A DNA stretch of 32,705 nt, from IMG/VR virus record IMGVR_UViG_3300021127_000024, positions 1 to 32,705 of that record; one strand, 5' to 3'. The stretch comes from a virus. The notes under the pieces were generated by a model. The model was not told the DNA's origin and did not search any database. It saw only the letters and a list, made by a program, of their open reading frames with translations. The number at the start of each line of letters is the position of its first letter. Position 1 is the stretch's first letter. Shown one piece after another: positions 12,526-32,705 of the stretch. A program made the translations under genes and the position numbers.

Positions 12526-14187
12526 CTAGAGCCAGACGGTGGAGTCGCTGGCGATTTGTTCGAAGTACACCGTGCTGTTGTGCTGAGGCACACCACGGGT
12601 GTTCGCCGACTCTTCGTCGTCGTCCTCGTAGTCGATGCCGTCGTCCAAGTCGCTGTTCTCCCAGTCGTTTTCCGGGTTCCAGTCGTCCCCGCTCACGTCC
12701 ACGAAGTCCGGCTTGCTGTGCCAGGCGTCCTGGATGAACGACTGGTCAGACATCCAGCCGTCGATGCCCCAGACCCCGTCTTCTGGCTCCGGTGCGAACC
12801 ACGGGTCCTCGCCTTGGATTTCCTTGTAGACCCAGGTGCCCGAGCGCATCTTGCGGCTCCTGAACCGGTAGTCCACGGTCTCGGTGATTTCCTTGTTGGT
12901 CTTCTTGCTCGTCCACTTGAAGGTGATTTGGTCCGCCACGTCCAGGTGGATTGCGCCTTGCTCGACCCACTCCCAGGTGAGGCTGGGACGCTGCACGCCG
13001 TCCGTGTCCTCCATGTCCTGGAGGTTCGGGATGACTGCTGGCGGTCGGGTCCACACCACGGGCTTCATTGGCACCCGCTGGGTGAAGACGTAGTTCGACT
13101 TCTCGCACTCGTGGACCGATTCGGTTGGGAACCAGATGCTGCAGTCCCGGCAGATGGTGCAGAGGGCCTTCATGGGCACTGCCTCGCCGTTGAGTCGTGC
13201 GACTGGCTTACGCTCCCAGTCCACCTGCTGCTCAAAGTCGGAGCGCCACCACTTGTCGGCTGTCTCCAGGATGCTGATGTCCCAGTCCGCTGGTGTGCGG
13301 TCGTACATCTTCAGCTGGTGGTTTGTGACTCCACCGCTGACTCCGAGCGTGGGACCGAATGCGGCCTTGATACGCTGCACCTCCGCCAAGCGGAAGTTCT
13401 CCTGCCAGTTGGTCATGCTGCCTCCTTGGGGCATGGGTTCGGGTTCGGGTGCGTTCCCTCCTGAGAACGGCTTGGGGTAGGAGCGAGTTGGGACACCCGC
13501 CTTGTTTGAGATGTCAAGCATCATTGCTGTGCCAGTCGATGGTGCGTTCGGGTCCGAGTAGAAGCCGATGACCAAGTGCGGCTTGCCCTCCTGGAGCATC
13601 TTGGTGTTGCGCAAGAACCCTGCGCGCTTGCCGTACTTGTCCCACTCAGCCGGGAACTCCTGGACCTGCTGGCCACGCTCACGTGCCCAGCGTCCTGCGA
13701 GTCCGTCTGCTCCACGTGCTGCTCCGTGGATGATTGTGACTGCGCCTGCCTCAGCAAGCAGTGCGTCCAAGACCTGGTTGAGCAACCCCCGGTCTGTGTA
13801 GTCACGGCTACCGCACACGATTACTTTCATGCTTGTCTCCTTGGTTCGAGCCACGGTGGGGGCTTCGGGAAGGGAGGCCCCACCGTGGCCATTGGCTAAC
13901 TGCAACAACACGTCTGCGTGGCATGCACGTGGCGCACACCAGCACACAAGGTCTTTGCCCTTGAGTGTTGGGATTGCTTCACGCACTCGCTGCGCTGATG
14001 GGGACGTGTTCACCCACTCCTTGTACTGCTCGATGACCTTGGCTCGGTCAGCCTCGGTCCGCATCGGGAAGGGGTTCCCGAAGAGTCCGCTGCTTTGCGG
14101 AGCAGCCGGGTTTGGCCTCCCCACGTAGACAGCGTTGGTCCAGTCGATGTTCCGACTCAAGCGGAGAACTCGTGGTTGATACTGCAT
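12526..14187 (-). CDS. Three-module ORF: DUF4326, SLOG/DUF2493 and zinc-finger region, with internal ribosome sites
   Basis: The open frame encodes 553 residues. Residues 1-100 are DUF4326: YVGRPNP, GNPFPM, and the KGKDLVCWCAPRACHADVLL signature with the Cys/His set. Residues 120-236 are a SLOG/DUF2493 domain: MKVIVCGSRDYTDRG, the HGAARGADGLAGRWA helix, FPAEWDKYGKRAGFLRN, and LVIGFYSD. Residues 258-553 are unfamiliar, with CTICRDCSIW plus a later HEC (zinc-finger-like) and an acidic DDGIDYEDDDEES tail. Met120 (13830) and Met258 (13416) each have a strong ribosome site in front, so three products or nested forms are likely. SLOG proteins handle nucleotide-type ligands; the third part is unknown. 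The gene overlaps the one before it by one base (TAATG) with AAGGAGGT upstream. Confidence 0.82.
   Translation of the reverse strand: MQYQPRVLRLSRNIDWTNAVYVGRPNPAAPQSSGLFGNPFPMRTEADRAKVIEQYKEWVNTSPSAQRVREAIPTLKGKDLVCWCAPRACHADVLLQLANGHGGASLPEAPTVARTKETSMKVIVCGSRDYTDRGLLNQVLDALLAEAGAVTIIHGAARGADGLAGRWARERGQQVQEFPAEWDKYGKRAGFLRNTKMLQEGKPHLVIGFYSDPNAPSTGTAMMLDISNKAGVPTRSYPKPFSGGNAPEPEPMPQGGSMTNWQENFRLAEVQRIKAAFGPTLGVSGGVTNHQLKMYDRTPADWDISILETADKWWRSDFEQQVDWERKPVARLNGEAVPMKALCTICRDCSIWFPTESVHECEKSNYVFTQRVPMKPVVWTRPPAVIPNLQDMEDTDGVQRPSLTWEWVEQGAIHLDVADQITFKWTSKKTNKEITETVDYRFRSRKMRSGTWVYKEIQGEDPWFAPEPEDGVWGIDGWMSDQSFIQDAWHSKPDFVDVSGDDWNPENDWENSDLDDGIDYEDDDEESANTRGVPQHNSTVYFEQIASDSTVWL
13421..13427 (-). 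promoter_or_regulatory. Internal ribosome-binding site before Met258
   Basis: AAGGAGG on the minus strand lies four bases before the in-frame ATG at 13416, inside the long ORF. It would start a separate 296-residue product holding only the zinc-finger and acidic part. The strength equals that of true starts nearby, such as the one at 14187. Confidence 0.65.
13837..13842 (-). promoter_or_regulatory. Internal ribosome-binding site before Met120
   Basis: AAGGAG on the minus strand lies six bases before the in-frame ATG at 13830, exactly where the SLOG domain begins (MKVIVCGSRDY). This suggests that the SLOG part was once, or still is, a gene of its own that has become continuous with the DUF4326 part. 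Confidence 0.65.
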
Positions 14188-14465
14188 TAGTTACCTCCTT
14201 GGTTGATGTGGTTGTTGTCCCACTCGTTGGTCATGGTGTTGATTGCCCACCACTTGAACAGAGTGTCGTACTCGGCCTCCACGATTGGGCGGTTGTAGAT
14301 CTCTTCCGCCTCGTCCCAGCCTTCGTCCTCGTCCCAGCCTTCGTCGTAGGAGTTTTGGTGGACGGTTGTGTACGCCTCTTCCCACATCTGCCAGCCGATT
14401 GCTGCCAGGAACAAGTCAAGTCCGGCCCCGTAGGTCCAGACGGCACTGCTGCACTGCTCGGGCAT
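14187..14465 (-). CDS. Hypothetical acidic, Trp-rich protein (92 aa)
   Basis: The ATG at 14465 has AAGGAGGGG about six bases upstream and is preferred to the longer in-frame reading. The middle has a duplicated acidic segment (DEGWDEDEGWDEAEE), and the protein is rich in Trp, Asp, Glu and Asn. It has a predicted helix with hydrophobic face near residues 8-30 (WTYGAGLDLFLAAIGWQMWE). Small acidic phage proteins can mimic DNA or bind basic host proteins, but nothing specific is shown. It is the first gene of the minus-strand arm, next to the control region, and so probably early. It overlaps the following gene by one base. Confidence 0.65.
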   Translation of the reverse strand: MPEQCSSAVWTYGAGLDLFLAAIGWQMWEEAYTTVHQNSYDEGWDEDEGWDEAEEIYNRPIVEAEYDTLFKWWAINTMTNEWDNNHINQGGN

Positions 14466-14566
14466 AAGCCCCTCCTTGGTTGGTTGTTTGGATGATGTTG
14501 CCATTTGCTGCCACATCGAAGGCATCTGCCTCCAACGAACGCACGGTCACCCTTCCCTCTACCTCA

Positions 14567-16291: not shown

Positions 16292-16577
16292 CACCGGAAT
16301 GAAAAGTACGTCGTTCCAAGTTTGGGGTGCTACGTTCATCAGTGGCCTGGCTGCGGAGGTCTATGCCTTCTCCAGCCACCACATTCCCAGCGCATTCGCC
16401 GGCATTGCGCTTCAGGCAGTTGCGGGTCTTATTAAGACCTTCCATGACCACGGCCTCAAGGCCACAGAAATCAAAGCGGCTGCTGACGTTCAGGAGGCTT
16501 TTTACTACGCATTGCCCAAGGGTGCCCTTGTGCAGACTAGCCCTGGGCCTGCCCCGGTGGTGCCACCGGTGAGTTAA
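16281..16577 (+). CDS. Small hydrophobic protein before TerL (98 aa)
   Basis: The ATG at 16281 has GGAAGGAG about six bases upstream. Residues about 13-30 (VWGATFISGLAAEVYAFS) and 38-51 are moderately hydrophobic, followed by FHDHGLKATEI, an Ala-rich helix, and a Pro-rich end (GPAPVVPPVS). It could be a membrane protein of holin type or a small structural protein; the sequence does not decide. It overlaps the previous gene by 11 bases, and its stop shares one base with the TerL start (TAATG). Confidence 0.58.
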   Translation: MAINTGMKSTSFQVWGATFISGLAAEVYAFSSHHIPSAFAGIALQAVAGLIKTFHDHGLKATEIKAAADVQEAFYYALPKGALVQTSPGPAPVVPPVS

Positions 16578-18469
16578 TGGCTCAAACGCCAGAGCAAGTT
16601 GCAAAGTATTTCCAACTTCGTGCAGACGGGTGGAGTCAGGCAAAGGCGGCTGAAAAAGCTGGCTTTTCTGTCTCCACCGCTGCGCGTCTGGAGAAAAAGT
16701 CACAGGCTTCCCAAACAACCAATCGGGAAGAGCTGGCGGCTATCAAAGCAAATGCAAAGCTTGGCGGACCAAAGCGTTACGACCAGTTAAGTCCCGAGGC
16801 CCAAAAAGCCCATGATGACTTTGGTTATTTTCAGCGCCGTTACTTTGGACGCATTGCCACGCCGTGGCAGGTCGAAGCAGCAGAGCAGATTGTTAAGTAC
16901 CTAGAAACGCCTGACAAAGAGTACGTCGTTATCAATTGCCCGCCTGGTGCGGGAAAGACCACGACCTTCTCCCACGATATCCCCGTTTGGCTTACGTGCC
17001 GTAATCGTGCCATCCGTGGAATGATTGGCCACTCGGTGGCCAGAGAGGTAAAGAAAAACCTTGGACGCCTCAAGCGAACATTTGAATCGACTATCCCGTT
17101 TAAAGCAGACCCAGACGATATCGCCAAAGGACTCGCCGTGGACGCCGAATCCACTGTGGCCTTGGATTTCGGACGCTTCCGGCCCGTCGAAAAGGACGTG
17201 TGGAATCAAGAATCACTGTTGGTTATGCAATACGACGATGTCGGCACCACCGCAGAAAAGGAATACACCTGGCAGGCGTACGGTATCGACGCGGGTTTCA
17301 TCGGTACTCGTGTCGACTTTGTCATTTGGGACGACCTTGTTGACCCTTCTAAGCTCCGCACAGCGGAAGCAAAAGAAAAACTAGAAGAGTTCTACGACGA
17401 CGTTTGTGAAACACGACTAGAGCCGGGCGGTCTTTTGGTCCTCATGGGCCAGCGCATTTCGCCGGATGACCTTTACCGCTACAACCTTGAAAAGACAATG
17501 CCTCTTGATGACGAAGAGGAATTGCTTGAAACGTTGAGTGAAGCGGAAATTGAAGCAATGCGTACTCGCAAAAAGTACCATCACATTAAATTTAAAGCGC
17601 ACTACGAAGACCGGTGCAAGCTTGAAAACCACAAGCGCAACGGGCCGTACTACCCAGAAGGTTGTTTGCTTGACCCTCGTCGCTTGACGTGGCGTGATTT
17701 GTCCGCACTCATGGCAAACCGTGGGGAAAAGTTTCAAATTCTTTTCCAGCAAGAGGATGTTGAAATTGACCAGTTTGTCAAAGAAGAATGGATTTTTGGC
17801 GGCGGCGGGCACATGGGATGTGTCGACCGCAATAGAGATTTTTGGGAAATCCCAAAGGGCCTTGTCAAACACGAATGTATTGTTGTTGCCACTGCTGACC
17901 CCTCACCAACAATGTGGTGGGCCGTGGAGTTGTGGATTTACCACCCAGAGTCGGAACAACGGTTCCTTATTGGCATTGAGCGCCGCAAAATGGAAGCGCC
18001 GGAGTTCCTTGACTGGAACTATAGGGAATCCAAATTCACTGGCATTATGGAGGATTGGCAATCCCGAATGACTCAAATGGGTTGGCCTATTCAAGCGTGG
18101 GTTATTGAACACAACGCCGCTCAGCGATTCCTGATGCAGTACGACCACTTTCAACGCTGGCGCCAAAAATGGGGTGTAAAGGTAATCCCTCACTCAACAA
18201 ACACCAATAAAGCAGACCCTGAATACGGCGTATATACACTCGGTCCACATTATGAATATGGACGTGTTAGAATACCTTATACGGATTTGGCAAAAACAGA
18301 CGCCATCAAACTTATCTCCGAGGTTAAAAACTATCCCCACGGCAGAACGGATGACACCGTTATGGCCCAATGGTTTTTGGAGTGGAATCTTCCTTCACTA
18401 AAGCTGTTGGTGACGCGTGTCAACCTTAAGCCACAGAAACGGCCTACATGGCTGGTTGGAGTGAAATGA
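16577..18469 (+). CDS. terL: Terminase large subunit with N-terminal helix-turn-helix-like segment
   Basis: The 630-residue protein has Walker A PPGAGKTT (122-129) and Walker B FVIWDD (248-253), then a coupling segment VLMGQRISPDDLY. The nuclease domain has Asp441 in VATADPSP, Glu511 in WVIEHNAA and the Asp pair in RTDDTVMAQ near 598. The ATPase pumps DNA into the head and the nuclease cuts concatemers. Residues about 5-42 (QVAKYFQLRADGWSQAKAAE, then AGFSVSTAARLEK) look like a helix-turn-helix of the kind found in small terminase subunits. No separate small terminase is seen in this window, so the two functions may be joined here; that is inference. Confidence 0.93.
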   Translation: MAQTPEQVAKYFQLRADGWSQAKAAEKAGFSVSTAARLEKKSQASQTTNREELAAIKANAKLGGPKRYDQLSPEAQKAHDDFGYFQRRYFGRIATPWQVEAAEQIVKYLETPDKEYVVINCPPGAGKTTTFSHDIPVWLTCRNRAIRGMIGHSVAREVKKNLGRLKRTFESTIPFKADPDDIAKGLAVDAESTVALDFGRFRPVEKDVWNQESLLVMQYDDVGTTAEKEYTWQAYGIDAGFIGTRVDFVIWDDLVDPSKLRTAEAKEKLEEFYDDVCETRLEPGGLLVLMGQRISPDDLYRYNLEKTMPLDDEEELLETLSEAEIEAMRTRKKYHHIKFKAHYEDRCKLENHKRNGPYYPEGCLLDPRRLTWRDLSALMANRGEKFQILFQQEDVEIDQFVKEEWIFGGGGHMGCVDRNRDFWEIPKGLVKHECIVVATADPSPTMWWAVELWIYHPESEQRFLIGIERRKMEAPEFLDWNYRESKFTGIMEDWQSRMTQMGWPIQAWVIEHNAAQRFLMQYDHFQRWRQKWGVKVIPHSTNTNKADPEYGVYTLGPHYEYGRVRIPYTDLAKTDAIKLISEVKNYPHGRTDDTVMAQWFLEWNLPSLKLLVTRVNLKPQKRPTWLVGVK

Positions 18470-20406
18470 GTCTACCTGCTGGCAACCGTGAGGCTGCTGA
18501 AGCTATTCACAACTTGTACCTGCAGCGCAAGCGTCATTATCATAAGCACATTAGTCAAATGAACGAAATTCGCGCTGTGTACCACAACACAGTGAATCTT
18601 CCGTTGCCCGAGCTTGACAAACTTGAACGACCCGAAATCCCCAACCTTGTAGCACAAGGCATTGACCAAACGGCAATGCGTATTGCGTCCGTTTTGCCGG
18701 ACATTCAGTATCCTTCTATGCGCCCTGGTTTCCAGTGGGCCGACAACAAAGCGCACGATGCCCGCCTAGCCAACCTTGGTTGGTGGAAGATGAACCGCTA
18801 CGACATGAAATTGCCGCGTCGTGCGCGCCACCTCATTGCTTACGGCGTTTCACCTATCAGCATTTCGCCGGTCAGTTCCAACGTCAACGACCACCGCAAG
18901 ATTCCGCATTGGCGTGTGCGTAACCCTATGGGCACTTTCCCTGCCCCAATGGACGACCACGACGCAATTACGCCTACCGACTGCATCTTTTCGGACATGC
19001 GCTCGTATGAATGGCTAAAGAAGAATTATCCGGAGCAGGCGGCGGTTATTGAAAAACCCCAGAATGCTGCTGATTCTGATTTGTATTACGTGCTTGAGTA
19101 CGTCGATGAAGACGAGACGGCCACCATTGTGCTTGGCGCAAAGCGGGAAACCGAACACGTGCCGTTTGGCCAAGAGGCGCGCCAGGCCGGCGCCCCGCAC
19201 GCACTGCTCTCACGCGTGAAAAACCGTGCCGGTATTTGTCCGGTTGTGTTTCCCAAGCGTATTGCGCTGGACGGACTGCTTGGCCAGTTCGACTCTATGG
19301 TCGGCATGTACATGGCAAGTGCCCGTATTGCTTCACTTAACCGCATTGCCGTGGAACGTGACATCTTTAAAGACGAATGGATTATGGGCAACGTGCCCAA
19401 CCAGGTGCCGGAGATTATCCAGCAGGCCGATGGCCGTATGGGCCAAATTGGTATTATCCACAACGGCCAGATCCAGGCACTCGGTACGCCGCCAGGCCCA
19501 CTTACCCAGCAAGTTTCGGATGCACTTGAGCGTGCGCAGCGCATGACCGCTGGCATCCCCGCAGAACTCGGCGGGGAGTCCGGTTCCAACATCAGAACTG
19601 CCCGCCGTGGTGCAGCCGTCTTGGGTAGCGCAATTGATGGAATTATCCAAGAGGGACAAATTGTTCTTGCCAGCTCCATGGAAGCTGAAAACCGCATTGC
19701 CGTTGCAATTGCCAAGGCGTACTTTGGTAACCGAAAGGCTGTGTTTTTTGGCGAGCGGTACGACGGCAAAGAAGCTGAACACACGGATTACGTCGTCAAG
19801 GATGTTTTTGAGCGAGATGACTGCGAAGTTAAGTACGCAATCCCTGGGACTGACCTGCCAGGTCTTATCGTGGAAATTGGGCAGATGATTGGTGACGGTA
19901 CCCTTTCGGTCACCACCGGACGAGAGATGAACCCATTAATTACTGACCCAACGCTTGAGGCTGACCGTGTTGAGATTGAGGGTCTACGCCGGGCTTTGCT
20001 CCAGTCTATGGAGACTGGAGCACAGAACGGCACAGTAGACCCGCACCAAATTGCGATGGTCGCCAAAATGAAATTTGAAAAGCACATCCCAATCGAGCAA
20101 GCCGTCATTGCAATCCACGAAGAAGAACAAAAAAAGCAAGCCGAAGCACAGCAAGCGCAGCAGCAGCAGGCCGGCATGCCAACGCCAGAGATGCAATCTG
20201 GTTTGGGTTCGCCCATGTCAAACGCCGGCCCTGGCATGATGCAGCCGCCTCCGGCTGTGCCCGAGCAACCGCAAGGTCAAATGAACCTGGAACAAATGCT
20301 TGCCGGCATTGGTGGCGCAAGCAAAGTTCCCCCAGCAGAACAACAGATGGGTGGTGGCCAAATGGGACCCGCAGCCGGAATGATGGCAGGTATGCCAGGT
20401 GCCTAG
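18466..20406 (+). CDS. Portal protein
   Basis: I start at the ATG overlapping the TerL stop (ATGA), preceded by GGAG; an ATG at 18448 would add six residues. The 646-residue protein has the size, position and helical core expected of a portal. It begins with a long helical region (NLYLQRKRHYHKHISQMNE), then a central body with LLGQFDSMVGMYMASARIAS and a stem-like part near RMTAGIPAELGGESGSNIRTA. The last 110 residues are a Gln/Met/Pro/Gly-rich low-complexity tail. The portal forms the 12-fold ring for DNA passage and head-tail joining. No protease is fused to it. Confidence 0.88.
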   Translation: MSLPAGNREAAEAIHNLYLQRKRHYHKHISQMNEIRAVYHNTVNLPLPELDKLERPEIPNLVAQGIDQTAMRIASVLPDIQYPSMRPGFQWADNKAHDARLANLGWWKMNRYDMKLPRRARHLIAYGVSPISISPVSSNVNDHRKIPHWRVRNPMGTFPAPMDDHDAITPTDCIFSDMRSYEWLKKNYPEQAAVIEKPQNAADSDLYYVLEYVDEDETATIVLGAKRETEHVPFGQEARQAGAPHALLSRVKNRAGICPVVFPKRIALDGLLGQFDSMVGMYMASARIASLNRIAVERDIFKDEWIMGNVPNQVPEIIQQADGRMGQIGIIHNGQIQALGTPPGPLTQQVSDALERAQRMTAGIPAELGGESGSNIRTARRGAAVLGSAIDGIIQEGQIVLASSMEAENRIAVAIAKAYFGNRKAVFFGERYDGKEAEHTDYVVKDVFERDDCEVKYAIPGTDLPGLIVEIGQMIGDGTLSVTTGREMNPLITDPTLEADRVEIEGLRRALLQSMETGAQNGTVDPHQIAMVAKMKFEKHIPIEQAVIAIHEEEQKKQAEAQQAQQQQAGMPTPEMQSGLGSPMSNAGPGMMQPPPAVPEQPQGQMNLEQMLAGIGGASKVPPAEQQMGGGQMGPAAGMMAGMPGA

Positions 20407-20848
20407 AGCCAGACAGCAAGGTGCTGTTGGCAAGGCATACAGCAACCGTACAGACCTCAACAAAGCCAGCACGCCTCGTACGGTCCCTGGCCAAGAATAC
20501 GGCATGCAAACCGCACAGATGGCAGGAATGGCCAAAGCCCCTGTTGCCCAAAGCGGAGCGCCGTCTATGACGCCTAACAGCGCAGCACCATCTGCACCTG
20601 CGCAACCACCCGCCATGCCGCCCCGTCCGTCCGCTATGCCAGGACAACTTGGCTGGATGGACCCTGGGCACCCAAACACCAATATGGCTGACCCTGGGTA
20701 CCAACCACCCAACTTTTACTCAATGCGAGTTAACGGCGTTGCCGATTTGCTTGACCAAATTGCACAAACGCCAGGAGCACCAAAAGAAGTACAGAAAATG
20801 GCAATTGTTGCCAGAGGACTAGCAAACAGGAGCAACAGTAATGCCTGA
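20399..20848 (+). CDS. Small Pro/Ala-rich protein following the portal (149 aa)
   Basis: It starts at a GTG eight bases inside the portal gene. The N-terminus has VGKAYSNRTDLNKAS and RTVPGQEYG, a pattern I associate with a conserved small protein after the portal in many actinophages. The middle is Pro/Ala/Met-rich, probably disordered. The last 45 residues form a helical tail (VADLLDQIAQTPGAPKEVQK). It may be a head-associated, scaffolding or connector-type protein, but the sequence alone does not show which. Confidence 0.65.
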   Translation: MPRARQQGAVGKAYSNRTDLNKASTPRTVPGQEYGMQTAQMAGMAKAPVAQSGAPSMTPNSAAPSAPAQPPAMPPRPSAMPGQLGWMDPGHPNTNMADPGYQPPNFYSMRVNGVADLLDQIAQTPGAPKEVQKMAIVARGLANRSNSNA

Positions 20849-23800
20849 GCCGGGACAGCCTGGATTTAACCCGCAAGCAGCACAACAAGCAGCTTTGCCC
20901 CCAGTTGAAGCACAAGCACCGGTTATGCACTTTACTGACCGACTTGCTGACGTTGCCAAAATTGCTCCAAGTGCCCCGCCACACGTCGCTGTTGGCCTAG
21001 CAAGTCTGCCTAACCATGAAGAAGCTGCGCAGACTTACCACATGGTTCACACAATTGCTAACAGCCAGCCAACGTCTGTTGCACAGGTCAATGACTATTT
21101 TGGTGTCAAACCACCAACTAGCCACAATTGGAACCCGTTGGAATTTGGTCTTCATTTTGTTGAAGGGGTTGGTAAAGGACTGTGGGGTATTGTGCCTGGT
21201 ACTTTGCACTGGGCCGAAAGCAGCGCAAAATCAATTGGCAAAGACGTTACGCAAGCGTGGCACGACCCATTTGGTGAAAATTTCACTGGTTTCTTTAAAC
21301 AAGTTGGTCACGACCTTTGGAACGATGCCAACGCTGGATTTGACCTTATCCCTCACATCTACCGCTACACCATTGAATACGCACACAAGTACGGTTGGGG
21401 CGCAGCTCTTGGCCACCTAACTGGTTCAATTATTCCTGCGCTTATCCCATTTGCTGGTGAAGCTATAACGGGAGCTCGTTTTGCTGGCTTGGCAGCGGAA
21501 ACCGCAGACGTTGGCGCTACAACCGCTGACGCTGGCGCTACGGCCACGGAAGGTGCTTCTGCTGAAGAAACAGCTGCTAGCGCAGCCAAAGGGGCGGAAA
21601 CCGGCCCATCCATTACAACCGGTGCTTCTGCTGAAGATTTGATTAAGTCTGGTGAAGAAATTCAAGCTTCACGTTTGGCCCCTCTTAAAGAGGGTCTGCC
21701 AGAAGACATGCAGCGCGTCATAGAATCAATGCAAAAAACGCTTCGATTTGCTGGCAAGGTAGCAAGTCCAATTATCAAACCACTCAGAATTATGCAACGT
21801 GGTTTGATGAGCCCTACGTCTGTTGGCGCTCAAATGGCTACCGGACTCAGCGCAACGGGAACTCAAGCCGACAGGGCACTTTGGGAAAAAGCTTCCAATG
21901 GCGCCACTTGGGTTGACCCCATGATGGGCCGGCATGCAACTCTTGGTCAATCAATCTTTGGTTTGATTACCGGTCTTGGTGGTGGAGAGCCTGGCCAAGA
22001 GTGGCAAGGGCCTCAGTGGCTGCATGACCTTACTTCACCACTTCAAGGTTTGATATCAGGTGCTATCGATTTTGACACTCAGTTGGTTGCACCTGACCCG
22101 TTTGGTGCGGTTGGCGACGTGTGGAAGATGGCACACAGCGCAGAAGGCGCACCTGGTTTTATGAACCGCATCTTTAAGGGTCGCGGCATTGAGACTGACG
22201 AAAAAGTCCAAGACCTTTTTAACCGGTCAAAAGCATTCCGTAAAACTTGCGCACGCATTGCCAAGATGAATATCAAGCAAATTGGTGAAACGCTAAAAAT
22301 TAGTGGTACTACTATCTCCCCGTTGTTGGCCAAGCAACTTGCTGAAGCAAAGACGGCAGACGACGTGTTAGCTGTTTTCCGCAACGCAGCTGGTAGCAAC
22401 GACCTTATGAGTGCTACCGCACCAAGCCTTGGTTTTTACACCCGTTTCAAAATGAATTACCGAGAGGTTGTTGACAAGTTCAACAAGCTTGATGAAATGG
22501 CACAAAAAGAAGGTCGCATTCCTCTGACCGAAAGGCAGCACCACCGCATCCAAATGCGCCATGCGCTTTTGCACATGAATGCTGGCCGTCCATTTTGGCT
22601 TGACTCAAAGGCGCTCAAAGGTGCAGTACGTACTTTTGAAGTAAACGGGGATGACCCCAATGCAATCAAGGCTATCATTCGCATTTTCCGTCAGGCCGGC
22701 CACAACGAGCAAGAGCTCAACAACATCTACCACGACCTAAACGAAGCAGCGCTTAAAGGCGACCCGACTCTTTTTAAAAACGTTGCGCTAAAAGCTTATT
22801 TTGACATTATGTCAACGAACTTGCTTGTGCGTTGCGGAGAAATTGAAGACCCGCTCTGGGAGTTGTACATGAACCAGGGTTACATCACCATGCAAGAACA
22901 GATGCAAGCAATTTCGCTTGGTGAGGACAATACGTACACTAACTGGAATATCCCAGGCCAACCAAACAAATACGACGTTATGGTCGACCCACGGGAAACT
23001 GGCGACTACAGCAACCTGCATACTGCCGGCGAAAACGAAAATCAGCTCAACGCGTTGCGCCTTATGGACCCGCGAGACTTTAAGTCTTTTGTTCGCAAGT
23101 TTGCTTCCATTATTGAAGACCCCAACCCAACGCTTGATTTTCTTAATGCTAAAACAAACGTGCAGTCTTTTTACAGTTTGCGTCAAGCATGCGAACAAGC
23201 AATTATCCACGCCAGTGATGACATTTACAACGCTAAGCAATTCCAAGAATTTCTTGACACCCATGCCAAGCGAGGCGTAGCTGTTGGCGAAGGTCGCGAT
23301 GCCAACAAAGACTTTGTCTTTGAAAACGCATCCAAAATGTTTAAAGACCTTCGACAAGAACATGGCGAAGTGCGTGCGTTTAGCTACATGATTAATTATT
23401 TGCAGGACACCCGTGACGCTATTGAAACTCGTCTTGAAGAAGCCAGGCATCTTGTAGCCAGCATGGCCCCTGGGGAGCGCAGTTCAGTTCACCGTGCTTT
23501 GATTGACGAATTGCAAACGTCAAGCTTTGGTGTCGAAACAATCATTAGCGAAATGGCCATGAAGCTTGGCAGGGTCCCGCAATGGCAAGAGTATTTTGAC
23601 AAAGTTGTTGGATTCCGTGGAAGCGCAGAAGACATCAGGGCTAGGGGTTACAAGCTTGCTGATGAAAAAGTAGCCGCATTCAACAAAATTTCATACGAAG
23701 ATTTGGTCCGCCATCGCGAAGCTGTTGCGACTATGACTAAAAAAGAAAAAGCCGAATTGGATTACGAACGTCGTCGGTTCAACAATGCAATGGACAAGTA

Positions 23801-26800
23801 CAGGGACGACCAAAGTAAAGGCATCAAATCAGACAAGCCCAAACTTAAAGTGCCCCTTGCGCTGCAAGAAAAAGGTTACATCTTTGGGATTGTTGACAAA
23901 AAAGCAGCAGTGCCGGATTACGACGTTATTGCTCGTACCGCTTCTCGTACCATTGCTGAAGGCGAGCACTACGTCAAAGCACGCAGAGAATTTGAAGCCA
24001 AATTCAAGCAAATCTGTGGCATGGTCAAATCGCCCTCCGGATGGCGCACCAGGTCACAAATTGCCATTGACAGCGTTAACGACGTAGTCAACAACGTTTT
24101 CTTTAAAACCCTTGCCTTGTCTTCGCAAGCATGGGCGTGGCACGTTGGTATTTCCGAAGCAGTGCTCAACGCTTTTCGAAAAGGCATTGGCATTGACTTT
24201 GCCAACCGCTTTGCTGTGTCCTATCGCAAGAGCGTTATGAAATACAGTGCTTTTAACGAAGGGGCTCTTGGCGAAAACTGGATTCGCAACCACGTTGGTG
24301 GCATGATGATGGGCATTCGTGCAGAACTTGTACGTTTTCTTATGGGCACCGAGCGTGGTAACCGGTTGCTGGACAACGCCCTTGACCTTGCGTTGATTTT
24401 CCCCAACGGCATTCACCCTGCACTTTCTGCAGCCATTGGTGGCACCGACGCGCTTGTTGACATGCACCGTGCTGGCGTTGACTTGGGCCACATGGTGTTG
24501 GACAACGCTTACCTTGCCAACAAATTTAAAACCTACACGCATAACGACCCTGCGCTTGCAATGATGTTGCGCCACTACATTGGCCAGTTCATGCACACCG
24601 AACAACACAAATTCATTGCAAAGCAAGCAAAAAAATACATTGAAGAAGCACAGACAGAGTTTGCTGAAAAAAGATTTCCAACTAGTGGCCTAAGTGGTCC
24701 CGTTGACAAAGAAACCATTCGCACGCAGGAAGAACGTCGTGAAGCTTTGTTCAACGAACTTCGTGAAATTGGCGACAAGCAAAGAGAAATTGCTGAAGAC
24801 CCTAACCTTACTGATGAAGAAAAACAACGAGAGCATCAACGGCTTGAGGATGCAAAACACAAAATTCTTATTGACGCTGGCAAAGAACAGCGGATAACTG
24901 AAAACACTTGGAAGATTGCTCAGTACTATGAAACGGCTCGTAACGAAGCAAGGCGTAATTCACGCACCGGCAATTTCTTTCTTGAGTCCAAGCTTCAAGA
25001 ACTTACCGACGCTGAGCAACGTGCCATTGAGTTTGAGTCAAACCAGATTTCCGATTACAAATGGCAAGAAATTCGCAGCAAACTTGAAAAAGACATGGTC
25101 GATTGGCTGCACGCACAGCCCAAAGCATGGCGTGACCAGTTCAGCGCAAGCCGACGCATCAGTATGGATGCCAAAGAAAAGAACGACCTTATCCCAGACG
25201 TGAACCATCACATTACGCCAATTGAAGACTGGGCCCGGCGTTCTGTACGTACAAACATGGCCACCTGGTTGGGCGTTGCTGCTCCCGACAACTTTGAAAA
25301 AGCTTGCTACCACCCTTGGATTCTTGACCAAATTATTAACCCAGACAAATTGGCAACCATTAAAGAATTTGCAGATTACCGCAAAGCTGCTGACAAGTGG
25401 GGCCAGTTTGTTGGCACCGGGCGTGAAAGCGCCTTCCCCAGCCACATCATGGGACCAGAACTTGCCAACGCTACCGCCATGCGCAAAATGGGTTCCAAGA
25501 TTCAAGCAGTTGCTGAGTACGGACACAAGAAATTCTTTGGCCCGTTCATTGACTGGATTAGTCGTGACCCCAACTTTTTGTGGGAATACCACTCGGAGAT
25601 GGAATTGCTTCGTGGCCGCATCATTGGCAACGCCATCAAACAAGAAGAACTTAGTAACCACATTGCCATGAGCGTTGAAGAGTTGATGTCCAAAATGAGC
25701 GAGCATCAGCGTGAAACGTACGACAGGGCCAAAGAGTTCTTCTTAGCGCACCCTGACCACGCTGTGCGTATGTACGTGCCGCCAACGGAGCACGAAACCA
25801 GCATCATGCATCCGTTTGACTATGCGCAATATTTGCACATGAAACGGTACCCGTTTGCTACGGCAAAGTCTGAAATCCCACCGTTGCTTGACGAAGAGTT
25901 TAAGAATCCAGAAAACTGGACGCATGCCGTCATGGAGGATTCTGCACGCATAAACGGGAAGTGGGACTTCCGTAGCATTTTCCCGCATATGCATGAAGAG
26001 GACGTTGCAGCAGCCAACGAATACGGGCAGCGTTACTTTGAACATGCAAACTCTTACGACGCTTCGTTTGCAGAGCAGCATGATTTCTTGGCAAGCCAAC
26101 CAGCTGCTCTTCAAGATTTCCATTACGAGCACGGACGGTTTAACCCTATGACCGTGCCCGAGGGCATGGGAGATACGCACGTACGTGGAGTTATCGATGA
26201 CGTACGCAATGCTGTAGCTGGCAACCATGCGCTTCTTTACGCTGTTGACCGTCGTGGGCATGTAACTGCCACGATTGCTTTTGCCTACAGCGACGGCACC
26301 AAGATTGACAAAAACTTCTTTAGCAAAGAAATGCCGTACGCAGACTTTAAAGCAAAAGTTGACCAAGCAATGGAGCAAAACCCATCATGGGTCATTGACT
26401 TGGTTATGGGGCGTTTGAGAAATGTGCCTGCATTGCGAGAAGATGCAATGCAGGATTATTTGGACAGGGGCGCTAGAGACTACCCTACAAATTCTAATTA
26501 CATTTACAACCCACAAAAAGGACACACCTTAGAGGAATTTTTGGACGTCGTTAGAAGAGACATTATGGACTCTGAAAAAACTGGCGTTACTCCTTTAATT
26601 GGTGGACAAAACTTTAACGAAGCTAGTGATGCATTTAGAACAGTCCAAAACTTTTTTGGTGCTCTTGATAAAGCTTTGCTTGAAGACGTAAAATTTTTTA
26701 TGCCCGATGCATTGGCTGGCGCAGAAAGAATACGTCTTGGTGCGTATTACCATAAAACAAGTGCTGTAAGCTTGTATCGTTTCATTGGTTTTCGTGGAAC

Positions 26801-29800
26801 TTTGGAACCAACAATTTTTCACGAAATTTGGCACAGTATGTCCAACCACATGTCCGATGGTGCTTTAAAGGCACTAAATCACGAATTGGAACTTGCACGT
26901 CAAGAATTTCTTAACCAATATGAACACCTTGGCATTGGTCAACTGCTTAAAGCCGATGATTACAATTGGCAAGATTTTTACTTTAGGCAAGACGAAGTAC
27001 AAGATGCATATTTGTCTACTTCTCACGGCTACACATCAATGATGGCTGACCCGGATGCTGCGCTTGATGAAATGATGAAGCATTGGGCATCAATAACAAA
27101 TCCAGATTTCCCCAATGAAAAAGATTGGGTGCAATTTGTTGGCGATCAGCGTGGTAGCGGAATAATTGAAGGTACCCATATTCAACACCGTCGTCCGCAT
27201 TATCGACTTGTAAACCTTGATGAATTTATTGCTGAACAAATGACTGACCGCACACTTGCGGCTTTTATTAAAGAAGGTTTGTTGCCAGCAACGTATGCGC
27301 AAGGCATGCAGGACCCAATTATTAAAGAAGTCTTTAACGACCTTGGCCGTACGTTGATGACAAAAAGTTTTACTCGCAACGAGCTGGCCCAGCACATTCG
27401 TGCTTCGTTGAAACTTGACGCAGCACGCAAACAATACGGTCGTGACATTACTCACGAAGAAATTGATGCTGTCATCAAAAAATACTTTGCTCTTGATGCT
27501 AACGCAGGCCCCGGTTTTGGGGGACAAATGGACAAAAAAGCTTCCAAATCTGGTGCAGAAGTTTTTGTTTCAGGAACGGAACGATATCGCTACCGTGCAA
27601 ACAGCGGCAACGCCCTAAGCGACCTTGCTACTTCTGAACGGTTTATGTCTACCAAGATGCATTCTTCTTGGGAGCCAACACCTTCGCCTGCGGAATATCA
27701 CATGCCAGATGAAATGGTAGAAGAATTCCAAAAGCGTTACAACGCTGCAACTACTGCCGAAGAGCGAAGAGAAGTTATTGCAGACAAACGCGAGGCCGAA
27801 AAGAAAGGTCTTCAAGAGGCCAAGACGATGGTTGTTAAACAAAACCGTCGTAGCGCAATTGCATTTGGTACTGAAAACGTTCCACGCGGTGTTGATGAAG
27901 AAGGCCGTCCATTAAAAGACGTTGACGTTCGTAGTTGGGTTGACAACGAAGTGGCTGGCATGAAGACTCAAGTTGGTCAAGAGTTCATGCGTTATTTCAA
28001 CGACATGGTTGCAAAGCGTGCAATTCAAACTGCCAAAGTTGCATATGGCGAAGGCCCACTAAGCGAAATCTTTTCTGATTTCTGGCGGAAAAACTATTCA
28101 ACTGGTTCAGTTGACAACAACCCACTTGAACAAAGTCTTCGTAAAGACCCAGGTGTGTACGGAATTGTTACCAAGCCAGGTCAAAGCAACAAGAAAGCTT
28201 GGGACCGTACAGTTTGGGTTGGCAGGCCCAAGGGTTCTGTGCCTGACGGTGTCATTGGAGCGCGAGGTGAACTTGTGTTGCCATTTAAGTTTTCAAAAAA
28301 CTATGCAGACATGGTTCCTTCACCAGAAATGTTTGATGAACTGGAAAAAGAAACGGAAAAAATTAAGCACAATTTCAAACATTGGTTGTTGAACTCTAAT
28401 GAAAGTAACGCAGAAAAAATGCGAGCACTATTGCCACAAATCAAAGGCAAAAACATTGCTATGAGCGACCATGACCTTCATGCGCAATTTACGTCTTCTC
28501 AACGCATTCAGGCTGAAGTGTTGATGGAAGTTGCTAATGCGCTTGAAGAAGCTGCGCCTGTTGGTTCTACAACTCGTGCAGCAATTGCTTCCAAATGGCA
28601 GTTGCCAACACCTGTTCGAAAATCCGCCAGAGAGCGTCTATGGAACGTTTTAACATCTCCTACGTCAAACGACGAAGATGTGTTTGCTGCGCCTGCCGAC
28701 AGGATGTTACAGCAACGGCGTAGACTGCATATGAGTGGTTCTAACGGATTCTCACAAGGCTTCCCGTTTGCCCACACGCATGCACACATGCCTGACGTGC
28801 GAGTGCTTAGCACTAACTCACGTGCACTTACGCCTGGTGCTGTTGATGCGTTGAACTACGAGTTAGCTCGTCGTGCGCAAATCCAAGGTGTCAACGTTGA
28901 GTCAACGGAAAACCTGCCAAACACCACTGGTTACTACAGAACTGTTGGTACCAACGGTACCGATTACTCAGTCCGTTCAACGGTTGGTACGCAAGCAGAA
29001 CGTCAGTACGACAACCATGCAACGTGGTTTAAGCACACGCTGACGCACGATTTTAGCGTGGACCCACGTAACCCATCGGCTTCTGTGTACGCTGCTGCGC
29101 TGCGCTACAACAAAGAACGTTCGCACGCTATGAGCGAGTTTGGTGACTTGACTGGCGAGCAGGCACGGTTGATTGCAACTATTCGTGCCGCTGAACGCAT
29201 GTTGGGTTTTGTCCACAACCCCCTTGAAAAAATGGCACTTGAAAACAGCCTGCGTGTTGCAGCACCGTTCTACTTTGCGCAAAACCAGTCATGGCGTCGT
29301 GCCATGCGTGTATTTGCAACTGACCCTGGCGCATTTGAGCGTTACCTTAAAGCCAACTTGAAGATGGCTAACTTTGCAAGCGAGCATGACAACAACGGTA
29401 TTTCTATGGTTGCAATGCCTGGAAGTCAGTTGATGATGATGGGCTTGCTGAAGTTGATGCACGGCAACAACCTGCCGTTTGAAATGACTGGTGACCTTTC
29501 CAGCATGCGCACAATGCTGCTTGGTGGCTTTGGTAGTCAAGACAACGGTTCGTTGTTTAGGGACTTGTTGCCGCAGTTGGGCCCAGTCGCCACCGTGCCA
29601 ACCAAAGTTGCTGCTGGTGGAATGGTTGCGCTTGAGGATTGGATGAAACTTCCAAAGTCTTGGGCTAAGAGGACCATTGGTGTTGAAAACCAAATCCTTG
29701 GTCCGTTCTCTGCCAACAAACCTTTCTGGGTTGATTTGTTGCCAAGCACCCTGGTGCGTAACGTGCTGGAAGGGTTCTTGTCGTACACCAACATCCATAG

Positions 29801-31076
29801 CGCCGGCACAACGCTTGGTAGCTCGTACGTGTCTACACGTAATCAAGTTATGGCTGAGCTTGCTCAAAGCATGTTTGATGAGATTTCCCAAAGATTGCTT
29901 AACCAGGGTGGAAGCGGTCAAAGTGCTGAATACTGGCGTTTGTTAAAATCTGACCCTAACACTGCGCCACGGTTCTTTTCTGAAGTAATGACGCAGTTTG
30001 CAACCAAGTTTACTGACGTTCACGAAATGCAAGTGTTGATGGACCGAGCCAACAACATGACGGCAGCCATGTGGGTTATTAAAACCCTTGGTTCGTTTAC
30101 GTCACCGCTTTCAATATCACTTGAAAAAACGACCTACAAATTTACTGAAATTATGATGAAATACGTCAACAAATACGGTGCAACTGAAGGTTATGCAAAA
30201 TACGCAAAGGACTACCCGTACCACACGTTGGACACGGTGTTTATGAGTACTAGCCCTTCTGGCGATTCATATCCAGAAACAAAACCTGCATATGATTTCA
30301 TCAATCAACACCAAGATTTTACTAACAAGTACAAAAGCATTGCGGCGTATTTGATTGACCGGCCAAAAGATGCGCCGTTGTACCATCCTGCGTATTCAAT
30401 GGAACAGCAGATGGGCCTTCGTGCTCGTGCGCAACTTGAAAGCATGAGCAACTGGAACAACCTTGGTATTTACGAAACGCTTGCTATTGATGCCGGGAAT
30501 TCTTGGTACTACAACGACTTGTTGTGGAAAGTGCAAGTTGCACAAGGCGTTAATCCAATGAACCCAAGTGATCCCAACGTGGACCAAGCAACCATTTACA
30601 AACTTGAACAAGCCACTGGCGTACAATGGAACTGTGCTCCAAAAAGCAATGCACAAGCAACTAATGCATTGAACAATTGGGAAAAAGACCAAATCAGTCA
30701 GTACTCACGGTTTCGCAACGGCATTTGGGGCAAGTATCACGCATACAACCAACAGCAAGAAAATGCTGTCAACCAATTGACTGCGTTCCACAAATTGTAT
30801 GCTGACAAAAACTACGTCAGCATTTACGAGACCATGAACGAACAACAGCAAATGATTTTGAACAACGTCAAAACTTTGATTAACTCATACAACTACATTG
30901 TTCAAACCCACAAACAGATGCAACAAGCAGGGCAGGGTACAAGTCAGCTCGATACTGATTGGTACAATTATTGTATTAATACTGCACTGGAAACGCCATC
31001 GTTGGCTCCAGTAATCAATTCCTTGTTTAAGCATCTTCCTATGAGCGGAGTGAACAATGACACCCCAGTTGCCTGA
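20841..31076 (+). CDS. Giant multidomain virion protein (3411 aa) with metallopeptidase-like and DUF4326-like segments
   Basis: One uninterrupted frame fills 10.2 kb. The N-terminus is Pro/Ala-rich; residues about 190-270 combine a hydrophobic region (GSIIPALIPFAGEAITGARF) with Ala/Thr/Glu repeats. Most of the rest is long, charged, helical protein. A HEIWH zinc motif at 1994-1998 is followed by DEFIAEQMTD at about 2127-2136, giving an HExxH...E metallopeptidase pattern. Residues 2455-2566 resemble DUF4326 without its cysteines. LENSLRVAAPFYFAQNQSW near residue 2800 recalls conserved parts of very large phage structural proteins. It follows the portal and precedes virion-like genes, so an internal head or ejected protein is likely. 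I found no RNA polymerase motifs. It starts eight bases inside the previous gene. Confidence 0.85.
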   Translation: MPEPGQPGFNPQAAQQAALPPVEAQAPVMHFTDRLADVAKIAPSAPPHVAVGLASLPNHEEAAQTYHMVHTIANSQPTSVAQVNDYFGVKPPTSHNWNPLEFGLHFVEGVGKGLWGIVPGTLHWAESSAKSIGKDVTQAWHDPFGENFTGFFKQVGHDLWNDANAGFDLIPHIYRYTIEYAHKYGWGAALGHLTGSIIPALIPFAGEAITGARFAGLAAETADVGATTADAGATATEGASAEETAASAAKGAETGPSITTGASAEDLIKSGEEIQASRLAPLKEGLPEDMQRVIESMQKTLRFAGKVASPIIKPLRIMQRGLMSPTSVGAQMATGLSATGTQADRALWEKASNGATWVDPMMGRHATLGQSIFGLITGLGGGEPGQEWQGPQWLHDLTSPLQGLISGAIDFDTQLVAPDPFGAVGDVWKMAHSAEGAPGFMNRIFKGRGIETDEKVQDLFNRSKAFRKTCARIAKMNIKQIGETLKISGTTISPLLAKQLAEAKTADDVLAVFRNAAGSNDLMSATAPSLGFYTRFKMNYREVVDKFNKLDEMAQKEGRIPLTERQHHRIQMRHALLHMNAGRPFWLDSKALKGAVRTFEVNGDDPNAIKAIIRIFRQAGHNEQELNNIYHDLNEAALKGDPTLFKNVALKAYFDIMSTNLLVRCGEIEDPLWELYMNQGYITMQEQMQAISLGEDNTYTNWNIPGQPNKYDVMVDPRETGDYSNLHTAGENENQLNALRLMDPRDFKSFVRKFASIIEDPNPTLDFLNAKTNVQSFYSLRQACEQAIIHASDDIYNAKQFQEFLDTHAKRGVAVGEGRDANKDFVFENASKMFKDLRQEHGEVRAFSYMINYLQDTRDAIETRLEEARHLVASMAPGERSSVHRALIDELQTSSFGVETIISEMAMKLGRVPQWQEYFDKVVGFRGSAEDIRARGYKLADEKVAAFNKISYEDLVRHREAVATMTKKEKAELDYERRRFNNAMDKYRDDQSKGIKSDKPKLKVPLALQEKGYIFGIVDKKAAVPDYDVIARTASRTIAEGEHYVKARREFEAKFKQICGMVKSPSGWRTRSQIAIDSVNDVVNNVFFKTLALSSQAWAWHVGISEAVLNAFRKGIGIDFANRFAVSYRKSVMKYSAFNEGALGENWIRNHVGGMMMGIRAELVRFLMGTERGNRLLDNALDLALIFPNGIHPALSAAIGGTDALVDMHRAGVDLGHMVLDNAYLANKFKTYTHNDPALAMMLRHYIGQFMHTEQHKFIAKQAKKYIEEAQTEFAEKRFPTSGLSGPVDKETIRTQEERREALFNELREIGDKQREIAEDPNLTDEEKQREHQRLEDAKHKILIDAGKEQRITENTWKIAQYYETARNEARRNSRTGNFFLESKLQELTDAEQRAIEFESNQISDYKWQEIRSKLEKDMVDWLHAQPKAWRDQFSASRRISMDAKEKNDLIPDVNHHITPIEDWARRSVRTNMATWLGVAAPDNFEKACYHPWILDQIINPDKLATIKEFADYRKAADKWGQFVGTGRESAFPSHIMGPELANATAMRKMGSKIQAVAEYGHKKFFGPFIDWISRDPNFLWEYHSEMELLRGRIIGNAIKQEELSNHIAMSVEELMSKMSEHQRETYDRAKEFFLAHPDHAVRMYVPPTEHETSIMHPFDYAQYLHMKRYPFATAKSEIPPLLDEEFKNPENWTHAVMEDSARINGKWDFRSIFPHMHEEDVAAANEYGQRYFEHANSYDASFAEQHDFLASQPAALQDFHYEHGRFNPMTVPEGMGDTHVRGVIDDVRNAVAGNHALLYAVDRRGHVTATIAFAYSDGTKIDKNFFSKEMPYADFKAKVDQAMEQNPSWVIDLVMGRLRNVPALREDAMQDYLDRGARDYPTNSNYIYNPQKGHTLEEFLDVVRRDIMDSEKTGVTPLIGGQNFNEASDAFRTVQNFFGALDKALLEDVKFFMPDALAGAERIRLGAYYHKTSAVSLYRFIGFRGTLEPTIFHEIWHSMSNHMSDGALKALNHELELARQEFLNQYEHLGIGQLLKADDYNWQDFYFRQDEVQDAYLSTSHGYTSMMADPDAALDEMMKHWASITNPDFPNEKDWVQFVGDQRGSGIIEGTHIQHRRPHYRLVNLDEFIAEQMTDRTLAAFIKEGLLPATYAQGMQDPIIKEVFNDLGRTLMTKSFTRNELAQHIRASLKLDAARKQYGRDITHEEIDAVIKKYFALDANAGPGFGGQMDKKASKSGAEVFVSGTERYRYRANSGNALSDLATSERFMSTKMHSSWEPTPSPAEYHMPDEMVEEFQKRYNAATTAEERREVIADKREAEKKGLQEAKTMVVKQNRRSAIAFGTENVPRGVDEEGRPLKDVDVRSWVDNEVAGMKTQVGQEFMRYFNDMVAKRAIQTAKVAYGEGPLSEIFSDFWRKNYSTGSVDNNPLEQSLRKDPGVYGIVTKPGQSNKKAWDRTVWVGRPKGSVPDGVIGARGELVLPFKFSKNYADMVPSPEMFDELEKETEKIKHNFKHWLLNSNESNAEKMRALLPQIKGKNIAMSDHDLHAQFTSSQRIQAEVLMEVANALEEAAPVGSTTRAAIASKWQLPTPVRKSARERLWNVLTSPTSNDEDVFAAPADRMLQQRRRLHMSGSNGFSQGFPFAHTHAHMPDVRVLSTNSRALTPGAVDALNYELARRAQIQGVNVESTENLPNTTGYYRTVGTNGTDYSVRSTVGTQAERQYDNHATWFKHTLTHDFSVDPRNPSASVYAAALRYNKERSHAMSEFGDLTGEQARLIATIRAAERMLGFVHNPLEKMALENSLRVAAPFYFAQNQSWRRAMRVFATDPGAFERYLKANLKMANFASEHDNNGISMVAMPGSQLMMMGLLKLMHGNNLPFEMTGDLSSMRTMLLGGFGSQDNGSLFRDLLPQLGPVATVPTKVAAGGMVALEDWMKLPKSWAKRTIGVENQILGPFSANKPFWVDLLPSTLVRNVLEGFLSYTNIHSAGTTLGSSYVSTRNQVMAELAQSMFDEISQRLLNQGGSGQSAEYWRLLKSDPNTAPRFFSEVMTQFATKFTDVHEMQVLMDRANNMTAAMWVIKTLGSFTSPLSISLEKTTYKFTEIMMKYVNKYGATEGYAKYAKDYPYHTLDTVFMSTSPSGDSYPETKPAYDFINQHQDFTNKYKSIAAYLIDRPKDAPLYHPAYSMEQQMGLRARAQLESMSNWNNLGIYETLAIDAGNSWYYNDLLWKVQVAQGVNPMNPSDPNVDQATIYKLEQATGVQWNCAPKSNAQATNALNNWEKDQISQYSRFRNGIWGKYHAYNQQQENAVNQLTAFHKLYADKNYVSIYETMNEQQQMILNNVKTLINSYNYIVQTHKQMQQAGQGTSQLDTDWYNYCINTALETPSLAPVINSLFKHLPMSGVNNDTPVA

Positions 31077-31647
31077 AACTGAACACGTCGAAAATCCAAG
31101 CGGCGGTCCTGTGACCGGTGCTGAAACCATGCCGCAAGGTGGTGAAGAAAAACCAGCAGTTACTGCTGGCGCTGAGCAACGTGTTCATTACAACGATGTA
31201 TTAAAACAAATTGCGCAATATCACGTGCCGTATGACCATTCGCACCTTGCAGAGATGGTTGACGAAAATTGGACCATTGACAAAGCTAGTGCCGACGCTT
31301 TTGAAGACCATTACAAAAATATGGCGTTGGGGTTGTATCCAACGTTTGCTCCGCAAATTAAAGCAGGCATTAAACCCAACGCGTTGTTTGACCCGTACCG
31401 TCAAGTAGCAAAGCAAGTGCTACATGACCCAAACATTGAACCAGATTGGCTTGGTCAAGCGCATTGGAGCGCCGCCCTTGATGGCAACATTGACCCCAAA
31501 ACTCAAATGAAAACTCCAATGAGTTTGGGGCAGTGGAAAGAATATGTAATGACTGAACCAAAGTTTGGTTACGCAGCCACGGACGAAGGCCGTGCAAAAA
31601 TTGAGAAAGCCACGCAAGCGTGGCGTGAGATTGTAGGTAAGGCATAG
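31057..31647 (+). CDS. Hypothetical structural-module protein (196 aa)
   Basis: The ATG has GGAGTGAAC upstream and overlaps the end of the giant gene by 20 bases. The first 40 residues are Pro/Gly/Glu-rich and look disordered. The rest is helical, with aromatic clusters (FEDHYKNMALGLYPTFAPQI; FDPYRQVAKQV; LGQWKEYVMTEPKFGYA). The final segment (TDEGRAKIEKATQAWREIVGK) resembles C-terminal tails of large actinophage internal virion proteins. A role together with the giant protein is likely from position, but no family is certain. Confidence 0.68.
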   Translation: MTPQLPETEHVENPSGGPVTGAETMPQGGEEKPAVTAGAEQRVHYNDVLKQIAQYHVPYDHSHLAEMVDENWTIDKASADAFEDHYKNMALGLYPTFAPQIKAGIKPNALFDPYRQVAKQVLHDPNIEPDWLGQAHWSAALDGNIDPKTQMKTPMSLGQWKEYVMTEPKFGYAATDEGRAKIEKATQAWREIVGKA

Positions 31648-31649
31648 TT

Positions 31650-32705
31650 ATGGCTACACCCCCAGCGTTGCAACCGTCAGTTGATGCAGCAATTAAATAC
31701 ATGCAGAATCCTTCTGCGCAAACTTCTCCAGCAGTAAAACGTTTTGCAATTTTGTTGCAGCAGCAAGTTGTTTCAGCAATTAGTCAAGGTAAAGACCCTG
31801 CTTTGCTTACACAAATTAAAGGCGAATTGGCAGCGCCTGCTGTTGCTCTTTTCTGGGACAAAATTGCACAAAAAGGTTTAAAGGTCCAACTGCTTTCTAA
31901 TAATTTTGTTCCTGACCAATCAGTTCCTGAATCAAAAACAGGAATTTTTTGGCCAAGTTATGCCAGCTGGATGGGGCCAACCAATGAATTAACAAACGGT
32001 TCAGAAATTTTGAAACAAGTCGCAAGTCTTAAAACTGGTGGAGATTTTTTTAGTCAAATCAAACCAATTTATAATTCAGCAGCTAATGATTTTTTAGCTT
32101 GGTATAACCAAGGAAACAATTCGCAAACTTACAGCAGCAACCAAACTTTAATTGTTGCCGCAACAAACGTTTTGAATCAAGGTGTTACTGGCGGTACAGA
32201 AGCCACTGGCCAAGCTGGTAGTGGACTTCTTGGCATTAATGGAATTACTGGAATTGGTGGTGGTATAGGTAATTACAAAGCATCGACTTCATATGCTTGG
32301 AATCTTGGCGTTCCTGCAAGCGTTGCGTTAATTACTATTGGTGGCAAAACTTACAACCTTAACGCAATTACTCTTGCTGACAATATTAATGCTAACGAAT
32401 TAATTAAAGGCATCTACCTCGCTGCAGGTTCTGGTGGCAACAGCGCTTTGAAATATTTGCAAAGCACGTATCCAAGTTTAGTGCCCAAAGTTTCTGCAAA
32501 CGCAAGCGACACTACCAAACAAAATGATTTGTATAAATCTATGCACAATTTGTTGGACACCTATATTACTACTCAATATAATTCTAGCCAAAACTACCAA
32601 GTTATTGGTAGCGGTTCAAACGCAATTATTACCATGACGCCAATGGCTGGCGGTAGAAACAATGGGCATGGTTCAATTCCAGGTACTATTGATTTTGCTA
32701 CAACT
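31650..32705 (+). CDS. Virion-like protein, cut by the window end (partial, at least 352 aa)
   Basis: A frame opens at the ATG two bases after the previous stop (weak ribosome site, GTAAGG) and stays open to the last base. The first 150 residues are helical (SAQTSPAVKRFAILLQQQVV, and a Trp-rich FWPSYASWMGPTNEL). From residue about 165 it is rich in Gly, Asn, Thr and Ile (GLLGINGITGIGGGIGNYK). Later parts alternate helices and strands. The Asn/Thr/Gly-rich style and low GC resemble the partial gene at the left edge. A structural role is likely from its place; no family is recognised. Confidence 0.68.
   Translation, partial: MATPPALQPSVDAAIKYMQNPSAQTSPAVKRFAILLQQQVVSAISQGKDPALLTQIKGELAAPAVALFWDKIAQKGLKVQLLSNNFVPDQSVPESKTGIFWPSYASWMGPTNELTNGSEILKQVASLKTGGDFFSQIKPIYNSAANDFLAWYNQGNNSQTYSSNQTLIVAATNVLNQGVTGGTEATGQAGSGLLGINGITGIGGGIGNYKASTSYAWNLGVPASVALITIGGKTYNLNAITLADNINANELIKGIYLAAGSGGNSALKYLQSTYPSLVPKVSANASDTTKQNDLYKSMHNLLDTYITTQYNSSQNYQVIGSGSNAIITMTPMAGGRNNGHGSIPGTIDFATT

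Follow-up and report, generated by a model that had tools for sequence, protein, structure and literature searches.

Polyvalent proteins of phages, among them N4-type virion proteins that contain a zincin, have been proposed to enter the virion, in some cases to be cleaved by their own zincin, and to be injected (Iyer et al. 2017, PMC5512222); they carry zincin-like peptidases, and their genes sit with portal and head genes. The DUF4326 family (PF14216) has been placed in the rhodanese-phosphatase superfamily and, from context, is predicted to process the terminal phosphates of ADP-ribose derivatives, according to PMC9503650; the passages of that paper that were consulted do not mention Cys-less DUF4326 copies. 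Neither NADAR nor DUF4326 is mentioned in the text of PMC5512222, and we found no published report of DUF4326 in a giant protein of a head module. Here we describe a phage giant protein that very probably carries a true DUF4326 homologue as cargo, and in this homologue all signature cysteines and the signature histidine are replaced.

A giant protein in the head module

The stretch of DNA analysed, hereafter the window, comprises 32,705 nucleotides (IMG/VR record IMGVR_UViG_3300021127_000024). The features that frame the giant are as follows.

3775-3848, minus strand: tRNA-Lys (TTT)
16577..18469, plus strand: terminase large subunit, TerL (PHROG 38)
18448..20406, plus strand: portal protein (PHROG 104)
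20841..31076, plus strand: giant protein of 3411 residues, chassis and cargo (open reading frame, alignments of relatives)

Upstream of the giant lie TerL, portal and a 149-residue gene, the lone small gene between portal and giant. Downstream, a viral contig of 26,610 bp overlaps the end of the window (29426-32705; 3280 bases, one mismatch, 99.97%) and continues it with genes for 196 and 736 residues, the major head protein (PHROG 1357, E = 1.4e-61) and on into tail-fibre genes. With TerL and portal upstream and the major head protein downstream, the giant thus lies in the head module.

Relatives were found via the portal and the C-terminal part of the giant, which contains the PFYFAQNQ motif that served for the search; 59 viral loci and one contig from a bacterial bin were fetched, and 35 distinct long giants (1774-3248 residues) were compared. 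The viral records are metagenome contigs, mostly fragments, and a fragment that lacks DUF4326 need not stem from a phage that lacks it. The single bacterial bin contig (L133), from a Legionella metagenome bin, was the sole giant relative among bacterial genome contigs; it could hint at the host, or be a binned phage. A tblastn search of 50,697 phage records with the giant and with the domain returned nothing credible, so the giant lineage is not represented among those records. The alignments divide the giant into the following parts.

21141..25850, plus strand: N-terminal part of the chassis, residues about 101-1670 (PSI-BLAST coverage; nearly all of the 35 distinct relatives, except in slot A)
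within 21141..25850, plus strand: slot A, a more variable stretch, residues about 750-1050 (PSI-BLAST coverage)
25851..28940, plus strand: cargo slot B, residues about 1671-2700 (interval sizes in relatives)
26421..27407, plus strand: zincin-like cargo region, residues about 1861-2189 (common to relatives L090, L098 and L105)
26820..26834, plus strand: HEIWH (HExxH) motif, residues 1994-1998 (sequence)
28941..31037, plus strand: C-terminal part of the chassis with PFYFAQNQ, residues about 2701-3399 (PSI-BLAST coverage)

The interval corresponding to residues 1600-2780 holds only 2-29 residues in 32 of the 35 relatives, 225 in L127, 911 in L076 and 1180 in the window, and that corresponding to residues 620-1100 ranges from 155 to 1308 residues across relatives. 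Judged by these aligned lengths, both intervals behave as cargo slots on a common chassis. In the window, slot B contains about 1030 residues of cargo, namely the zincin-like region followed by the DUF4326-like domain. The flanks of the HEIWH motif resemble the HExxH regions of three relatives, and the motif region has no Pfam peptidase match. Elsewhere in the cargo, weak Pfam matches to Mistic, S-l_SbsC_C and DUF1444 were taken as chance.

A DUF4326-like domain in slot B

28203..28538, plus strand: DUF4326-like domain, giant residues 2455-2566 (BLASTP, hhalign, Pfam six-frame search); signature Cys and His all replaced

A previous reading of the sequence alone had aligned this part of the giant with the DUF4326 domain of a 553-residue protein encoded on the minus strand (12526-14187). 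Its open reading frame, residue range and coordinates are all correct, and BLASTP recovered the conserved blocks that it had named in the same order (VWVGRP/VYVGRP, LPF/NPF, FKHWLLNS/YKEWVNTS, IKGKNIAM/LKGKDLVC and AEVLMEVAN/ADVLLQLAN). When the 553-residue protein was compared with the whole giant, the DUF4326-like domain was hit with E = 1.6e-5 and the next match had E = 2.9; the 104-residue domain as query scored 34.3 bits, as against at most 28.5 bits from 5000 shuffled queries. Identity between the giant's domain and the intact DUF4326 of this phage is about 22%.

Plain HMMER alone is indecisive: a custom HMM built from 44 viral DUF4326 domains scored 4.3-6.8 bits against the full giant, a range that shuffled giants sometimes equal. 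DUF4326 was the sole Pfam family to match the stretch, at 14.5 bits (E = 0.057), under the curated cut-off of 25 bits. When all six frames of the record were searched with PF14216, matches arose at two sites only: this stretch, at 15.1 bits (E = 8.3e-4), and the known gene, at 81.3 bits. It is profile comparison that decides. With a 44-sequence DUF4326 alignment as query and 140-residue tiles of the giant as targets, hhalign returned 92.5% at the tile starting at residue 2451, in a match spanning columns 14-99 of 105, and 1.3% at the best non-overlapping tile. Removal of the phage's own copy from the profile still left 89.7-89.9%, and 827 tiles from the 35 related giants gave at most 12%, barring three tiles on real DUF4326 domains in L105 (98-99%). 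A chance resemblance between DUF4326 and an unrelated domain would fit the weak HMMER scores (4-15 bits); it is contradicted by the shuffle, tile and leave-one-out controls and by the true DUF4326 domains in a related giant, which make it highly improbable. No relatives of the domain alone, or of the surrounding 414 residues, were found in viral contigs.

Loss of the Cys/His signature

28446..28517, plus strand: strand-loop-helix remnant GKNIAMSDHDLHAQFTSSQRIQAE, 8-9 residues longer than the matching segment of intact copies, which bears CWCxPxxCHAD (alignment, conservation table, model)

Hardly any variation is seen in the family alignment at the signature positions (three C and one H) or at the GN of GNP. 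The loss of the Cys signature reported from the sequence is real: alignment columns C135, C145, C157 and H158 correspond to M2541, T2551, I2556 and Q2557 in the giant. The giant likewise lacks the GN of GNP (V2479, L2480, P2481), so that neither the CxC-x(4-5)-CH pattern nor the GNP of active members is present, while GRP, GK and the last N remain. The giant's domain contains a loop, SDHDLHAQFTSSQR, that exceeds its counterpart in intact copies by 8-9 residues and has many His, Asp and Ser.

AlphaFold2 places the signature of the intact domain (pLDDT 91) in the connection from a strand to the helix that follows it. The model of the giant's domain (AlphaFold2, mean pLDDT 77.7; core mostly 84-95) has its strands and helices in the same succession, and its loop at the signature site is longer; this model is no independent test of the fold, because its alignment held DUF4326 rows. 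The top viral model retrieved with it by Foldseek was a DUF4326 protein (probability 0.87, weak E of 0.12). Foldseek against the PDB matched neither model to a solved structure; for the intact model, nothing fell below E = 3.7 and DUSP26 appeared at a probability of only 0.02, and phmmer against the PDB returned nothing. Since neither model matches solved structures, the rhodanese-phosphatase assignment of DUF4326 is neither confirmed nor excluded by these searches. Homologous to DUF4326 yet Cys-less, the giant's copy is therefore probably catalytically dead, as judged from its residues.

A 244-residue protein from a bacterial genome (L199) has a partly degenerate DUF4326 signature (LADWGEIGRPCIGDVL), and Cys loss thus also occurs outside giants.

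The intact copy and the question of origin

13900..14139, minus strand: intact DUF4326 of the 553-residue protein (PF14216, 77 bits; AlphaFold2 pLDDT 91)
13918..13944, minus strand: CWCAPRACH signature of the intact copy (sequence)
13633..13830, minus strand: YspA-type SLOG domain (PF10686) of the same fusion protein (Pfam)

The intact copy that had been assigned to the minus-strand gene is present, with DUF4326 fused to a YspA-type SLOG domain; DUF4326-SLOG is a fusion type named in PMC9503650. A search with the SLOG and C-terminal part of the 553-residue protein yielded 51 SLOG relatives, none with DUF4326 nearby. Like the giant's domain, the fused copy has a long insert between GRP and NPF; unlike it, it retains the signature and lies on the opposite strand.

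Two features raised the question whether the giant's domain arose by duplication of the minus-strand gene: this shared insert, and the fact that of 46 DUF4326 sequences the phage's own copy matches the giant's domain best (34.3 bits; next 24.3). We regard a recent event of this kind as unproven, since identity reaches only about 22% and GC3 differs strongly, at 0.69 in the DUF4326 part of the minus-strand gene (0.69-0.81 for the gene) versus 0.38 in the giant's copy. In addition, the profile match holds without the minus-strand sequence, and the long insert is also found in a bacterial DUF4326 protein (L198). The part of the sequence-only reading that pairs an intact minus-strand DUF4326 with a Cys-less, probably inactive copy in the giant stands, whereas recent duplication is unsupported. 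The minus-strand genes around DUF4326-SLOG (11843-14525) have a GC3 of 0.64-0.79, and the span from the giant to the end of the window (20841-32705) one of 0.28-0.51.

Cargo of related giants

When PF14216 was searched across 39 viral records, only the window, L105 and L110 were positive. The search of other phage giants that the initial reading had proposed uncovered an intact and a Cys-less DUF4326 in tandem. In slot A, the L105/L110 giant (3033 residues) harbors a NADAR domain (86 bits), an intact DUF4326, CNCSPLACHGDV (71 bits), and, directly after it, a second DUF4326, VNDTPADVAHAYLLHEIVN, with no Cys at all (38.8 bits); slot A also contains a zincin-like HELFH. Cys-less DUF4326 is therefore not a one-off in the giant lineage; in L105/L110 its identity is unmistakable. 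The L105/L110 giant shares with that of the window a homologous chassis, a zincin-like region and a Cys-less DUF4326, but its cargo is in slot A, beside an intact DUF4326 and NADAR, and its Cys-less copy, unlike that of the window, keeps NP and His and reaches the higher Pfam score.

L105 and L113 belong to one contig (IMGVR_UViG_3300025400_000015, 64,966 bp) with two giants, of 3033 and 2078 residues, about 40 kb apart; this is either one phage with two giants or two phages joined.

ADP-ribosyltransferase (ART) domains lie in one or the other slot in other relatives. The closest long relative, L076 (2081-11824), has such a domain (PF03496, E = 1.7e-10) in slot B, and L081 has one in slot A (residues 992-1151, E = 2.2e-12). 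L080, near-identical to L081, displays a canonical-looking R / STS / ExE pattern.

Possible roles of the Cys-less domain

The explanation that we favor, tentatively and at somewhat less than even confidence when taken as a whole, is that the giant is a polyvalent-type, probably virion-packaged protein with a dead DUF4326 domain as cargo, which keeps its fold and acts by binding. On gene order and resemblance to polyvalent proteins, the giant is probably a component of the virion; it would travel in the phage head and accompany the DNA into the cell, and there the putative zincin may free the cargo. The dead domain would then retain its fold and act by binding instead of catalysis, with an ADP-ribose or nucleotide derivative as putative ligand, or else another protein, for instance an intact DUF4326. 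The scaffold, decoy or ligand trap of the sequence-only reading would look alike at the level of sequence. That the domain binds something, as opposed to having no function at all, is by itself possible, though we would hold it a little short of an even call.

The main rival is a functionless remnant, a decaying domain or inert spacer that lost its function after insertion into the slot and persists because removal is neutral or the slot length is tolerated. This we consider rather unlikely, while acknowledging that the signature residues and the GN of GNP are all gone, that identity has fallen to about 22% and that cargo is clearly dispensable across relatives, since slot B is nearly empty in 32 of 35. 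Decay sits less easily with a frame that is open over 10 kb and with codon usage in the DUF4326-like stretch that matches the rest of the giant, and it would have to account for the retention of the scaffold residues GRP, GK and AN alongside loss of the whole Cys/His cluster, and for the second Cys-less copy in L105. Alternatively, the dead domain could be the regulatory half of a pseudo-dimer, pairing with and stabilizing or regulating an intact DUF4326, either in cis, as in the L105 tandem, or in trans, with the 553-residue DUF4326-SLOG protein. The adjoining intact and Cys-less copies of the L105 giant and the presence of both forms in the window phage are in keeping with such pairing, but DUF4326 is not known to dimerize, and in the window one copy is encoded on the plus strand and the other on the minus strand, in separate modules, which means that their timing of expression need not coincide; we regard this as quite unlikely. 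Still less probable, to the point of being only marginally conceivable, is a changed chemistry in which the longer loop supplies a new active site: its 8-9 additional residues and its wealth of His, Asp and Ser would suit this, but no relative carrying this loop turned up in which its residues could be seen to be conserved.

Extended from this one domain to the lineage, the favored reading of a dead, binding cargo would mean that these giants use the virion to deliver dead NAD/ADP-ribose-type domains as binders (sponges or decoys) of immune signals of the host, together with live ART, NADAR and DUF4326 enzymes that are exchanged through two slots. In this broad form the idea is unlikely, if not as remote as pairing with an intact copy. 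It nevertheless offers a testable notion, that phages bring anti-signaling modules with the virion, some of which work by binding and not by catalysis, and the giant with intact and Cys-less DUF4326 beside NADAR, together with the sister giants that have ART in equivalent slots, is a concrete set of proteins with which to test it.

Comparison with described systems

With DUF4326 (PF14216, NrdA.1-like), the giant's domain shares the order of blocks (VGRP ... PF ... helix ... KGK(D/N) ... helix ending in (A)N) and the predicted strand-helix-helix-strand-helix core. It differs in lacking the GN of GNP and every Cys and His of C-W-C-x(4)-C-H, in its longer loops and in a score below the Pfam cut-off. 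As for the giant itself, virion RNA polymerase, MuF and other published markers of polyvalent proteins were not recognized in it with Pfam or PHROGs. Like the polyvalent proteins, it joins several domains in one very long chain and has its gene next to those for portal and head proteins, and its lineage likewise combines an HExxH region with exchangeable effector-type domains: ART in L076 and L081, and NADAR and DUF4326 in L105.
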